From: Vreelandella aquamarina
Lineage (GTDB): Bacteria > Pseudomonadota > Gammaproteobacteria > Pseudomonadales > Halomonadaceae
Direction of reading: 5' to 3'
Length of the DNA stretch: 64,000 bases
Assembly: GCF_900110265.1 (NCBI RefSeq)
Contig: NZ_FODB01000010.1
Location: forward strand, 1 to 64,000
Of this stretch, positions 38,257 to 43,020 are shown in pieces (positions within the stretch are counted from its first letter, which is position 1; the number at the start of each line of letters is the position of its first letter). The notes beneath the pieces are model-generated. The model was given only the letters and a program-made list of their open reading frames with translations. It was not told where the DNA came from and ran no database searches. The translations under genes were made by a program, and so were the position numbers.

Positions 38257-40980
38257 TTAGCTTAATTTGCCGCAGCACTGCTTATATTTTTTACCCGAGC
38301 CACACACACAGGGGTCGTTGCGGCCAACTTTCGGGTTTTCCCGGCGCAGCGGACGGCCATCAACCCCGGGCGCTGTCTCGCTAGTACCGGCATCAGGCGC
38401 ATCGTGGCGGCTGGCGGCTGTCGCTTTTTCACGAGCAAGCTCTTCACGGCGTTTCTGCTCTAGGGCATCCACTTCTTCTGGCTGACGCACCTGAACGTGG
38501 CTGAGAATACGCGTGACATCGGCTTTGATATTGGTCAGCAGATGTTGGAACAGCTCGAAGGATTCGCGCTTGTACTCCTGCTTGGGGTTCTTCTGTGCAT
38601 AACCACGCAGGTGGATACCGCGACGCAAGTGGTCCATGGACTGCAGGTGCTCTTTCCAGCGGGTATCCAGCACTTGGAGCATCACCTGCTTCTCGAAGCG
38701 GCGAATCAATGCCGCACCTGCGGACTCGATTTTAGCCTCATAGGCCTCGCGGTGCATGGTTTGCAGACGTTCACGCAGCTTCTCTTCGCTAAAGCGCTCG
38801 TCTTCCTCGGCCCACTGCGTCACTGGCGCGTCGAGATTGAACTCGGTTTTCAAGTGGGCTTCCAAGCCGGGCAGGTCCCACTGCTCAGCCAGGCTCTGGG
38901 GCGGCACGTACTCGCTAATCGCGTCTTCCATCACCTCTTCACGAATACCCACCACCGCGGCGGAGACATCGTCAGACGCTAGAATTTCGTTACGCTGCTC
39001 GTAAATCACGCGGCGCTGGTCGTTGGCTACGTCGTCGTACTCAAGCAGCTGCTTGCGAATATCGAAGTTACGCCCTTCCACTTTCTTTTGAGCGCGCTCT
39101 ACCGCATTAGAAACCATTTTGTGTTCAATGGCTTCACCACGCTCAAGGCCCAGCGCCTGCATTAAGCGCTTCACTCGGTCGGAGCCAAATAAGCGCATCA
39201 GGCTATCTTCCAAAGAGAGGAAGAAGCGTGTGGAACCCGGATCGCCCTGGCGGCCTGCACGGCCACGAAGCTGGTTATCGATGCGGCGGGATTCGTGGCG
39301 CTCAGAGCCCACCACGTGCAAGCCACCAGCTTCCAGCACCGCGTCGTGGCGCTTTTGCCATTCGGCTTTTAGCGCATCAATTTGTGCTTGGCTAGGGTTT
39401 TGCAGCTTCGCGGCTTCGGCTTCCCAGTTACCGCCCAACATAATGTCAGTACCGCGACCCGCCATGTTGGTAGCGATGGTAATCGCACCGGGCCGGCCAG
39501 CTTGAGCAATAATTTCTGCCTCACTTTGGTGCTGCTTGGCGTTTAGGACGTTGAATTTAAGCCCTGCCTCACGCATTAGGCGCGCCAGATACTCAGACGT
39601 TTCGATAGAGGCGGTACCCACCAGCACTGGGCGGCCCGCTTCGGTCTCTGTTTTCACGTCTTTGATGATGGCTTCGTACTTCTCTTCCGCGCTCAGGTAC
39701 ACAAGGTCGTTGAGATCTTTACGCGCCAGCGGGCGGTTGGTGGGAATGACGATCACATCAAGACCGTAAATCTGACGGAATTCGAAGGCTTCGGTATCCG
39801 CCGTGCCCGTCATGCCCGATAGCTTTTCATACAGGCGGAAGTAGTTCTGGAAGGTAGTAGACGCCAGCGTTTGGCTTTCACGCTGAACCGTAACGCCCTC
39901 TTTAGCTTCCACGGCCTGGTGCAGACCTTCAGACCAACGGCGCCCCGGCATGGTACGGCCAGTGTGCTCGTCGACAATCACCACCTGCCCTTCGGCAACG
40001 ATGTAATCAACATCCGGATGATAGAGATGGAGAGCGCGCAGCGCCGAGTGCATATGCTGTAGCAGGTTGAGGTTTTGCGCTGCGTAGAGCGATTCGCCCT
40101 CACCCAGCAGCCCTTCGGCCCGCATGAGCTCTTCGACTTTATTGTGACCCTGTTCGGTCAGCTCCACCTGCTTCTGCTTTTCGTCGAGCACGAAATCGCC
40201 GCTCACCGGTGCTTCGTCATCTTCGGAGACTTCACCCTGCTCGAGCTGTTGGGCGAGGCGGTTCACGATGCCGTAGAGGTCGGTGTTCTCGTCTACCGCG
40301 CCAGAGATAATCAACGGCGTACGTGCTTCATCAATTAGGATGGAGTCGACTTCGTCCACAATCGCGTAGTGCAGGCCGCGTTGGACTTTATCTTCCAGCG
40401 AGAACGCCATGTTGTCGCGAAGATAGTCAAAGCCAAACTCGTTGTTGGTGCCGTAGGTAATGTCGCACTGATAAGCATAGCGCTTCTCTTCGCCGGTCTG
40501 CCCTGCAAAGATAACGCCTACCGTTAGCCCTAAGAATTCATAAAGCGGGCGCATCCATTCCGCATCACGGCGGGCGAGGTAGTCATTCACCGTTACCACG
40601 TGAACGCCTTTACGGGTCAATGCGTTCAAGTAGACTGACAGCGTGGCGACTAGGGTTTTACCTTCACCGGTTTTCATTTCCGCGATACGGCCACGGTGCA
40701 GGGTCATACCACCGATCATCTGCACATCAAAGTGGCGCATGCCCATTACTCGCTTACTGGACTCACGAACGACAGCAAAGGCTTCTGGAAGCAGGCTATC
40801 CAGCGTCGCCCCATCGTCTAACCGCTGACGCAGCTCAGTGGTTTTCGCTTGAAGTTCCGCATCGCTTAGGCCCGCCAGGGTCTCTTCTAACGCATTAACG
40901 CTCTGCACGCTTTTATACATGCGCTTTACTTCACGGTCGTTTTTAGAGCCGACCACTTTACGTAGCAAGTTATTAATCAT
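38257..40980 (-). CDS. secA: Preprotein translocase ATPase subunit
   Basis: A 907-residue motor that pushes unfolded proteins through SecYEG. Walker A is [13 protein letters not shown], the DEAD-type motif [19 protein letters not shown], and the motif VI region [16 protein letters not shown]. The C-terminal zinc tail [18 protein letters not shown] binds SecB and phospholipid. Length matches the E. coli protein (901). Only a weak GGAAA ribosome site precedes the ATG. A 122-codon ORF ends 67 nt upstream, and a promoter-like pair lies in that gap. Confidence 0.98.
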
Positions 40981-41021
40981 GAAATTTCCAGATCATCGTG
41001 AGCGCCCCATCCAGGTGCGCC

Positions 41022-41051
41022 CTTATATAAGGCAAATAGGCGTAATGTTAA
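41022..41051 (-). promoter_or_regulatory. Candidate secA-proximal promoter
   Basis: On the minus strand TTAACA (41046-41051) is followed after 18 bp by TATAAG (41022-41027), or after 16 bp by TATATA. The -10 is within the perfect palindrome CCTTATATAAGG (41021-41032). The -35 overlaps the stop codon of the upstream ORF. It would give a leader of about 35 nt for secA. This competes with the idea that secA is controlled only through the upstream ORF. Confidence 0.5.
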
Positions 41052-41416
41052 CCAATGCGTTGTTCGGCGGGCGGGCCACGAGGGGTCACTACATCGCTGG
41101 CAGCAACAAGTCGAAGCGTGATCAGCGGTAGTAATAGAGGACGGCTGCAAACGCTGGGCAATCGGCGCGTTTGGCGACTAGCCCAGCGACGAAGCGCACG
41201 GCGCTTCTTGGCAATCCAGTGCGATTGAGCCCGTAGCATCGCAGGCATCCAAAAGCAGATGCAGACATTGCGGCCACTGCTTCTCAATGCATCTGAAGGG
41301 TGTAAACTAGCGGGCAATAAGCAGCTCACCAACAGGCCAGCCAGCCACCAACGCGCTAAGCCATAGCGTCGTTGACGCCTTGGCGAAGCAGATACTATCT
41401 CTGACGTTGATGACAT
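41048..41416 (-). CDS. Small exported-type protein upstream of secA, SecM-like arrest peptide candidate
   Basis: A 122-residue ORF that I do not recognise by homology. Residues 13-23 are basic, then a hydrophobic segment (WWLAGLLVSCLLPASL, 23-38) ends in a possible signal-peptidase site near ASL-HPSDA. The middle is rich in Arg and Cys. It ends TPRGPPAEQRIG, with Arg113-Gly114-Pro115-Pro116 six residues from the stop. E. coli SecM, which senses secretion through ribosome stalling, also has an N-terminal signal and ends GIRAGPQRLT ahead of secA; RAPP motifs stall in other arrest peptides. The ribosome site is poor (GGAG 12 nt upstream). It is the first ORF on the secA strand, divergent from dciA. 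Function is inference. Confidence 0.5.
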   Translation of the reverse strand: MSSTSEIVSASPRRQRRYGLARWWLAGLLVSCLLPASLHPSDALRSSGRNVCICFWMPAMLRAQSHWIAKKRRALRRWASRQTRRLPSVCSRPLLLPLITLRLVAASDVVTPRGPPAEQRIG

Positions 41417-41437
41417 GCTGTGGACTGGCTCCCGAGC

Positions 41438-41465
41438 GTGTTAGGCTCTTTTCATTGGCGGTCAA
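41438..41465 (-). promoter_or_regulatory. Candidate promoter for the small ORF and secA
   Basis: TTGACC (41460-41465) and TAACAC (41438-41443) on the minus strand are separated by 16 bp. The start would fall near 41431, giving about 15 nt of leader before the ORF ATG at 41416. The -35 is good and the -10 poor. Confidence 0.35.
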
Positions 41466-41527
41466 TCACAGGCGCTGTTTGTATTCGCCAGTACGACGTC
41501 ACTAGCAACACCCTAGGAATTAAGTTG

Positions 41528-41998
41528 ATGAGTATAAAGGTTAAGCGTTCTCGCGCACAGCCCATTGCCCAACTGCTGACCAAGTCTGGCGGCGTTGGAC
41601 AGCTAATGCGCCAATCACGCTTAATTGATCAAGCGCAACGCCACCTTCGCGCCCATTTGCCTGAAGAGATGCGCGAGCACATTTTCGTCGGCGGCTTCAG
41701 CAACGGACGCCTTACGCTGATCAGCGGACAAGCCAGCTGGTTAACGTGGCTACGCTACGAGCAGTCGCAGCTACTGTCACTGCTTCACCAATTACCGGGC
41801 TTTGAAGGCGTGACAGGGTTTACGCTCAAAGTTCGTCCAGTGCGCCCGATCGAGTCACCTAAGCGTTACACGCGCACACTGTCAGATGATGCTGGCAAGA
41901 CCCTGGCCGAATGCGCCAAAGACACCGACAACCCCGCGTTAAAAAACGCCCTGGAGCGGCTTGCTTCTCACGCGCGCTCTACAGAACCAAAACCTTAG
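41528..41998 (+). CDS. dciA: DciA (DUF721), replicative helicase loader
   Basis: A 156-residue basic protein of the DUF721 family. DciA loads the DnaB helicase in bacteria that lack the phage-derived DnaC. The start MSIKVKRSRAQPIAQLLTKS and the compact KH-like core (EHIFVGGFSNGRLTLISGQA, SWLTWLRYEQSQLLSLL) fit the family. ATG at 41528 has AGGAAT upstream; a 36-codon in-frame extension is unsupported. It diverges from the secA strand and converges on lpxC, as in Pseudomonas. Confidence 0.88.
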   Translation: MSIKVKRSRAQPIAQLLTKSGGVGQLMRQSRLIDQAQRHLRAHLPEEMREHIFVGGFSNGRLTLISGQASWLTWLRYEQSQLLSLLHQLPGFEGVTGFTLKVRPVRPIESPKRYTRTLSDDAGKTLAECAKDTDNPALKNALERLASHARSTEPKP

Positions 41999-42018
41999 CA
42001 ACGCGACCCCTTAAACGC

Positions 42019-42046
42019 ATAAAGCACCGCCTTAGCGATGCTTTAT
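42019..42046 (+). terminator. Terminator between convergent dciA and lpxC
   Basis: ATAAAGCACCGC (42019-42030) and GCGATGCTTTAT (42035-42046) pair over 12 positions with one mismatch and a CTTA loop. The A/T-rich outer part acts as the U-tract on both strands. Confidence 0.75.
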
Positions 42047-42108
42047 AAAGTGGGGGGCCGTTTCGTTATGCCAACTCAACTCCCCCCAACATTTTGCCTT
42101 ATGCCTCA

Positions 42109-43020
42109 TTACGCCATGACAGGAGCGGCATAGGAAATAGGCGCCACTGCTTTCTCTTCTTCAAACGTAACGATTTCATACGAATCGGGCTGTGCCATCA
42201 GCTCCCGGCAAAGCTGGTTATTCAGCGCATGGCCGGATTTAACACCTCGGAACTCGCCAATCAGGCTGTAACCAAGCTGATAAAGGTCACCAATGGCGTC
42301 TAGCACTTTATGTTTGACGAATTCGTCTTCGTAGCGCAGGCCGCCTTCGTTCACAATACGGTAGTCATCCACCACAATGGCGTTTTCTAAGCTACCGCCC
42401 AGCGCCAGATTGTTCGAGCGAAGGTACTCTAAATCGCGCATAAAACCGAAGGTTCGTGCACGAGAGACTTCTTTCACGAACGATGTGGTTGAGAAATCGA
42501 TCAGCGCCGTTTGCTTCTGCTGTTCAAAGACCGGGTGGTCGAAGTCGATAGCAAATGACACCTTGAAGCCTTGGTGAGGCAAAAAGGTAGCCTCTTTATC
42601 ACCATCGGTAACGCTAACCCGACGCTTAATGCGGATAAATTTCTTCGCTGCCTCCTGCTCTAAAATGCCCGCTGATTGAATCAGAAACACAAAGGGGCTG
42701 GCACTGCCGTCCATAATTGGCACTTCGGGCGCACTGATATCGACGTAGGCGTTATCAATCCCCAAACCGGCAAAGGCTGACATCAAGTGCTCAACGGTCG
42801 CAACTTTGACGCCTTCATGGCAGAGCGCTGTGCATAGCATGGTGTCTTCCACCAATTCGGCACGGGCAGGTACGTGTACCACTGGGTCCAGATCGGTTCT
42901 GACAAACACAATGCCGGTGTTGGCCGGCGCCGGGCGCAAAGCCATGTGGACTTTTTTGCCAGAGTGCAGACCCACTCCAGTGGCGCGGATGACGTTTTGT
43001 AATGTGCGTTGTCTGATCAT
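42109..43020 (-). CDS. lpxC: UDP-3-O-acyl-N-acetylglucosamine deacetylase
   Basis: A 303-residue zinc amidase catalysing the committed step of lipid A synthesis. [20 protein letters not shown] holds the first zinc histidine, [14 protein letters not shown] the second histidine and the aspartate, and [17 protein letters not shown] the catalytic histidine. [12 protein letters not shown] is also typical. The C-terminus ([19 protein letters not shown]) resembles the degradation tail used by FtsH in E. coli. It follows ftsZ at the end of the division cluster. Confidence 0.97.

Follow-up and report, generated by a model that had tools for sequence, protein, structure and literature searches.

An RGPP-containing open reading frame upstream of secA as a probable arrest peptide in Vreelandella aquamarina and other Halomonadaceae

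The secA gene of Vreelandella aquamarina (38257-40980, minus strand; SecA domains in Pfam) is preceded on the same strand by a small open reading frame, which raises the question of whether the product of this frame is an arrest peptide regulating secA, and how it would relate to the systems already described. The stretch of DNA analysed here, further referred to as the window, comprises 64,000 nucleotides and is part of one contig of a 3.5 Mb genome assembled in 125 contigs. The initial annotation, made from the letters of the sequence, had described an ORF of 122 codons on the secA strand, ending 67 nt from secA with the C-terminus TPRGPPAEQRIG, and had proposed it as a SecM-type arrest peptide. 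The coordinates, length and gap were re-derived, and the ORF (41048-41416, minus strand, stop included; uORF in the following text) is real as annotated. Among the 238 ORFs of at least 60 amino acids in the window, RGPP occurs once, in the uORF. In all likelihood, the uORF encodes an RGPP arrest peptide which regulates secA, the presumed target gene.

The order of genes at the locus is lpxC(-), dciA(+), uORF(-), secA(-), and in E. coli K-12 the corresponding order is lpxC, secM, secA. The uORF thus occupies the position of E. coli secM, with an inverted dciA in between (41528-41998, plus strand, with an ATG start, the listed ORF beginning at GTG 41420; PF05258, E 2.1e-7, and synteny). It had been stated previously that lpxC is not the upstream partner at this locus, which proved incorrect, as lpxC (42109-43020, minus strand; PF03331, E 2.9e-111) is the next gene upstream on the secA strand, beyond dciA. 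Synteny was computed for the related genomes, and the divergent dciA was found upstream in all 69 uORF loci examined, with lpxC inside the examined flank in 63 of them. The closest named relative of the locus is that of Vreelandella lutescens, at 90% identity.

The uORF is a conserved gene. Within Vreelandella, a match was found in 80 of 82 genomes (E 1.7e-12 or better), and all 80 matches precede secA, one of them overlapping the secA start by 4 nt. The two genomes without a good match are 80% and 66% complete, hold weak stray matches only, and gave no secA match either at E 1e-20. An intact uORF with RGPP is present in 79 of the 80 copies, and the one broken frame (locus L056) comes from a genome (G030) that is 86% complete and 6% contaminated. 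There, the RGPP stretch is intact in another frame, which fits a sequencing error and a true loss alike. At the level of Halomonadaceae, a family of halophiles, 257 of 275 genomes, belonging to 20 of 24 genera, have a match. The 18 genomes without one are the two incomplete Vreelandella genomes and 16 others, and no RAPP-like ORF was found ahead of secA in these 16. In 15 of them, the place of the uORF is taken by an open frame of 309-353 codons, which is a Peptidase_M23 according to Pfam in all three cases tested (L191, L199, L209). A long frame ahead of secA resembling the same peptidase by eye was also seen in other families (L245, L264, L276), and at L262, again in another family, the long frame is LpxC by eye.

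A wider draw comprised 390 genomes of the order, which we take to be the GTDB order Pseudomonadales, with Halomonadaceae as one of its members. The uORF was matched in 26 of these genomes at E 0.01. All 18 Halomonadaceae in the draw match at 6.7e-17 or better, and the eight matches from other families are partial, none of them better than 2.9e-4. From the 372 non-Halomonadaceae genomes, 59 secA-upstream loci belonging to 24 families were inspected (three of them had no ORF longer than 60 codons, one only 254 bases long), and a RAPP-like ORF was absent in 58; the matches to the motif in the remaining locus, L289, lie in frames taken for noise. The uORF protein of the window has no Pfam or NCBIfam match, and an alignment of 43 uORF members has no match in PDB, the Pfam matches of its members being scattered and weak, with the best E of 0.004. 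The AlphaFold model of the protein was set aside (mean pLDDT 59.8). A chance or non-coding ORF was ruled out by the conservation together with the synonymous character of the changes.

With respect to the motif, motif-blind alignment placed RGPP in 80 of 80 Vreelandella loci and in 80 of 80 named loci, the latter largely duplicating genomes of the Vreelandella set (80 were kept of 163, retrieved with search patterns covering the Cys stretch or part of the middle segment). In other genera, 27 RGPP and two RAPP were counted in 29 loci, and 60 further loci gave 59 RGPP and one RAPP. The only substitution of RGPP seen in the aligned copies is therefore RAPP, and its occurrence in L193, L194 and L366, all from other genera, represents a natural swap of two known arrest motifs. 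In the Vreelandella set, each of the residues R, G, P and P is present in 79 of 79 copies, encoded by several codons per residue.

Selection along the peptide was computed as pN/pS over 79 Vreelandella copies, using 198 pairs of them that share 80-99% identity. From 0.36 in codons 2-12 the value falls to 0.05 in codons 13-38, which hold the signal (41303-41380), and then rises to 0.12 in the conserved middle segment of residues 39-77 (41186-41302; also apparent in alignment A1) and to 0.33 in the variable linker of residues 78-103 (41108-41185), all on the minus strand like the segments that follow. It drops to 0.03 in the putative arrest module VAASDVVTPRGPP (residues 104-116, 41069-41107), which follows the pattern VAAxDVxTxRGPP and ends with the RGPP codons at 41069-41080, and rises to 0.73 in codons 117-122, where little protein constraint is left (41048-41068, stop included). 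Constraint thus peaks at the basic/hydrophobic segment and at VAAxDVxTxRGPP, and stops at the second Pro. Such a profile fits a signal carried by the nascent chain, with an exposed part, a linker filling the tunnel, a core at the peptidyl transferase centre, and little afterwards. As the ribosome tunnel holds 30-40 residues, we infer that residues 78-103 fill the exit tunnel in the stalled state and that residues 39-77 lie outside the stalled ribosome. The distance from Cys32 to the third residue of the motif is 77-84 residues in 126 distinct copies, a set filtered for R[G/A]PP and Cys, so that the presence of both there is by construction.

The same data bear on a different explanation, in which the uORF product, encoded ahead of secA, is an ordinary small protein, either exported or resident in the membrane, whose finished form needs RGPP for its function. 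Conservation of the N-terminal and middle segments at the protein level would agree with it. However, the constraint ends at the second Pro, followed by a tail that ranges from 1 to 44 residues among the 126 distinct copies, no usable relative is found in Pfam, NCBIfam or PDB, and the sole substitution of RGPP is RAPP, which together make an ordinary protein highly improbable. The initial annotation had named checks for its arrest-peptide reading, and those that can be computed came out in its favour: frames are intact in 79 of 80 Vreelandella copies, no aligned copy lacks RGPP except for three loci with RAPP, and most changes ahead of and within RGPP are synonymous, unlike those beyond it. 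The arrest-peptide reading is supported by the conservation of RGPP and by the selection pattern, and published work shows stalling of ribosomes by RGPP peptides (PMC10987492, PMC12992588).

Residues 13-38 (RRQRRYGLARWWLAGLLVSCLLPASL, 41303-41380), earlier described as basic and then hydrophobic, are indeed so according to both alignment A1 and hydropathy. By hydropathy alone, the segment consists of a basic n-region (+4) followed by about 16 hydrophobic residues, and the summed insertion scale stays positive, with the best value of 2.66 over 17 residues, which argues against a strong membrane span. The segment resembles an export signal, and the uORF product is probably exported; given the conserved stalling motif near its end, it very probably works as a secretion sensor like E. 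coli SecM. Within it, RWWLAGLLV[S/G]CLLP is constant nearly letter for letter, the invariant residues being judged on alignment A1 (43 chosen of 79 copies). In the motif-blind sets, Cys32 is present in all aligned copies having a residue at that position, and the residue ahead of it is S or G, except for Thr in two loci. The hydrophobic segment seems to be conserved more strictly than mere export would require, and this strictness invites the question of which signal the peptide responds to.

The consensus of a lipobox is L-x-[GSA]-C, and the uORF carries a comparable L-x-[S/G]-C, in the form L-V-[S/G]-C, after a short hydrophobic stretch; this may be a lipobox or else a site of contact. It could be proposed that the N-terminal segment, exposed outside the ribosome, does not merely promote export but acts as a dedicated sensor. 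The peptide would then report on a particular branch of export, such as the maturation of lipoproteins or insertion into the membrane, and not on bulk secretion, and would adjust SecA by way of RGPP stalling and an mRNA helix specific to the family. The near-constant segment with its pN/pS of 0.05 and the constant, lipobox-like Cys32 with S or G before it in all but two loci would speak for such a variant of the core reading. On the other hand, the hydrophobic stretch runs on beyond the Cys, there are only six residues between the last Arg and the lipobox-like tetrad, Thr stands before the Cys in two loci, and some of the named loci were retrieved by patterns containing the Cys stretch. A sensor of one particular step is rather unlikely, and an RGPP arrest peptide that monitors Sec is the preferred reading.

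According to this preferred reading, the basic/hydrophobic segment would direct the nascent chain to the Sec machinery, and the ribosome would halt at RGPP, its P-site holding Pro115, the third residue of the motif, and its A-site Pro116, through a RAPP-type block of peptide-bond formation. For RGPP stalling, the stall site and the mechanism, this proposal draws on papers dealing with other organisms. When export is efficient, pulling by SecA/SecYEG would free the arrest quickly, and when export is slow, the arrest would persist and the stalled ribosome would cover the codons at and beyond RGPP. The free post-RGPP codons may pair with the sequence just ahead of the secA ribosome site, and since the stalled ribosome would occupy the pairing codons, translation of secA is proposed to rise. 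Release by pulling, the response of secA and the use of the pairing in Vreelandella are the steps that we infer.

Translation of the uORF itself would start from GGAG at 41429-41432 (minus strand), located 12 nt ahead of the ATG. A weak ribosome site had been counted against the ORF; the site is weak, and yet GGAG at 12 nt is kept in 75 of 79 Vreelandella copies, with a spacing of 11 nt in three and no GGAG found in one. The leader at 41414-41432, with GGAG at its 12-nt spacer, is nearly fixed, and codons 2-12 (41381-41413) show a pS of 0.114 compared to 0.40 overall. The low synonymous change and the fixed leader suggest a constraint at the level of DNA or RNA, exerted at initiation or from the side of the divergent dciA. 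The promoter-like pair that had been placed between the ORF and secA was not recovered by a sigma-70 consensus scan of 40900-42110 (other promoter types lie outside such a scan), and consensus scanning likewise found neither a promoter nor a terminator between the uORF and secA. No known RNA element was found in Rfam for 40900-41600 at E up to 1.

The secA ribosome site has a GGA core at 40987-40989, 6 nt ahead of the ATG, conserved in alignment A2. A possible hairpin, GGGCGCACC...GGGGCGCTC (41000-41022, minus strand), weakly indicated by RNAalifold, lies between the uORF and this site; in 46 sequences chosen of 72 from Vreelandella it has four outer pairs, one pair with changes on both sides and a covariation term of -0.03. 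Local folding gave a mean z of -0.85, with 40 of 106 copies below -1. The GC-rich stem-loop GGGCG...CGCTC at the same place recurs ahead of the secA ribosome site across much of Vreelandella.

Whether the codons following RGPP pair with the region of the secA ribosome site was assessed on copies passing the filter for R[G/A]PP and the Cys, with short gaps (limits of 30, 40 or 45 nt) or undetermined bases excluded. Expected pairs were computed between two segments, the 30 nt that begin with the P-site codon and a stretch of 36 nt at the secA start; 84 representatives gave a mean of 5.64 against 3.09 in shuffles, and 18 of the 84 exceeded 95% of their shuffles; the E. coli secM control gave 9.74 against 2.57. 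The best-helix score, compared between own and permuted partners in 94 representatives, was 15.74 against 14.32 (sd 0.27), none of 5000 permutations being as good, although, judged individually, only 8 of the 94 ranked in the top 5% under each of the two kinds of partner swap. The result is the same for the 49 representatives of other genera alone (0 of 5000) and after collapsing to 49 clades (16.13 against 13.98, sd 0.35; 0 of 5000) or to 34 clades (0 of 5000), and the excess corrected for G+C is 1.50 (standard error 0.42) in 91 representatives. For the 45 Vreelandella representatives alone it is not significant, as 737 of 5000 permutations were at least as good. When duplex energies were compared with those for the arms of other genomes, the top 5% included 10 and 14 of 114, with a weak signal in Vreelandella. 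In other genera, sliding windows of 18 nt score highest at offsets of 0 to +6 nt relative to the P-site codon, which falls inside the footprint of a stalled ribosome. Vreelandella has a local peak at -12 to -6 nt, and there 33-nt control windows near -210 outscore all windows near the motif. The accessibility of the secA ribosome site was 0.46 in the free and 0.49 in the stalled state in 106 copies (0.45 and 0.47 in shuffles), and since the E. coli control itself changed only from 0.46 to 0.51, this measure is insensitive. The permutations at the level of the family and of the clades, together with the null result in Vreelandella, make the switch well supported for Halomonadaceae and possible for the leader of the window. 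The earlier remark that no hairpin hiding the secA ribosome site is obvious needs correction family-wide, where the permutations support a helix that could hide it; for Vreelandella taken alone, such a helix is not supported.

An RNA unmasking step operating in Vreelandella has about even chances. A variant compatible with the core reading is that the arrest peptide serves secA there through another output, such as protection of the mRNA, a block of Rho or holding at the membrane. It is favoured by the non-significant long-range pairing in Vreelandella, by the window's own leader, whose expected pairs are at the level of shuffles (2.47 against 3.33), and by the uORF-secA gap, which varies from -4 to 210 nt among the 126 distinct copies. 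The pairing far above permutations in the family and in the clades opposes it, as does the minimum-energy fold of the window leader, in which the Pro-Pro codons pair with GGGGCG ahead of secA, and we consider such a variant a minority possibility, somewhat more plausible than a dedicated sensor of one export branch. Regulation of secA by an RGPP arrest peptide is common to both outputs.

The closest relationship to a described system is found in uA_RQH_Pseudomonadales, reported by Fujiwara et al. (2024, PMC10987492) as a small secA-upstream ORF with an N-terminal localization signal, which part of the Pseudomonadales (GTDB order) possess. Its member with R109GPP reached a stalled fraction >0.9 in the PURE systems of both E. 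coli and B. subtilis, and the same paper describes RQH members as stalling when the third residue of the motif occupies the P-site. The uORF shares the location upstream of secA and RGPP (R113 in the uORF), its N-terminal segment resembles such a signal, and of the features used to define RQH it shows a same-strand secA-upstream ORF without known function, a conserved C-terminal RAPP-like motif, and a spacer exceeding the required >30 residues. The same downstream gene, motif and order, together with Halomonadaceae being the only fit in the sample of the order, make this family the likely source of uA_RQH_Pseudomonadales, and the uORF group is probably identical to it. The statement that no description was known would then no longer hold, even though Halomonas has 0 occurrences in the main text of that paper, and in the open-access literature no paper was found joining 'arrest peptide' with Halomonas, or Halomonas with SecM and translation. 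As a difference, the text of PMC10987492, as far as available, describes stalling, and not secA regulation or RNA pairing. For a secA-upstream group described there by its stalling, the pairing result supplies an output step that can be tested. The kind of system is already known; the present analysis contributes the selection map, the exchange of M23 and uORF, the RAPP variants and the pairing test, none of which was met in the available parts of PMC10987492, PMC12992588 and PMC10951233.

ApdA and ApdP, which carry RAPP and precede secDF, share the R-[A/G]-P-P core, and the mechanism given in PMC10951233, in which RAP occupies the P-site and Pro the A-site, would apply to the uORF as well. 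They differ in the downstream gene and in the bacterial groups, as described in the available text of PMC10987492. According to PMC12992588, arrest takes place with either RAPP or RGPP in several contexts, and among RAPP-like motifs RGPP gives the most stable arrest.

SecM of E. coli is comparable in its place between lpxC and secA, in its export signal, to which the export-signal-like segment of the uORF corresponds, in the C-terminal R-x-[G/P]-P core, and in the pairing of post-motif codons with the stretch ahead of secA (in the fold for E. coli; family-wide in Halomonadaceae, not significant in Vreelandella alone). In contrast, SecM has RAGP where the uORF has RGPP, the uORF lacks FxxxxWIxxxxGI before the core and has VAAxDVxTxRGPP instead, and an inverted dciA stands between lpxC and the uORF. 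Homology to SecM was rejected, with an hhalign probability of 0.3% and no SecM match among 43 relatives. The designation as SecM-type can thus be retained for the probable mode of action but not for ancestry, which makes the uORF and SecM a clean candidate for convergent evolution. All of this indicates that nearly all Halomonadaceae would carry a SecM-like feedback on secA, encoded at the position of secM by a sequence unrelated to it.
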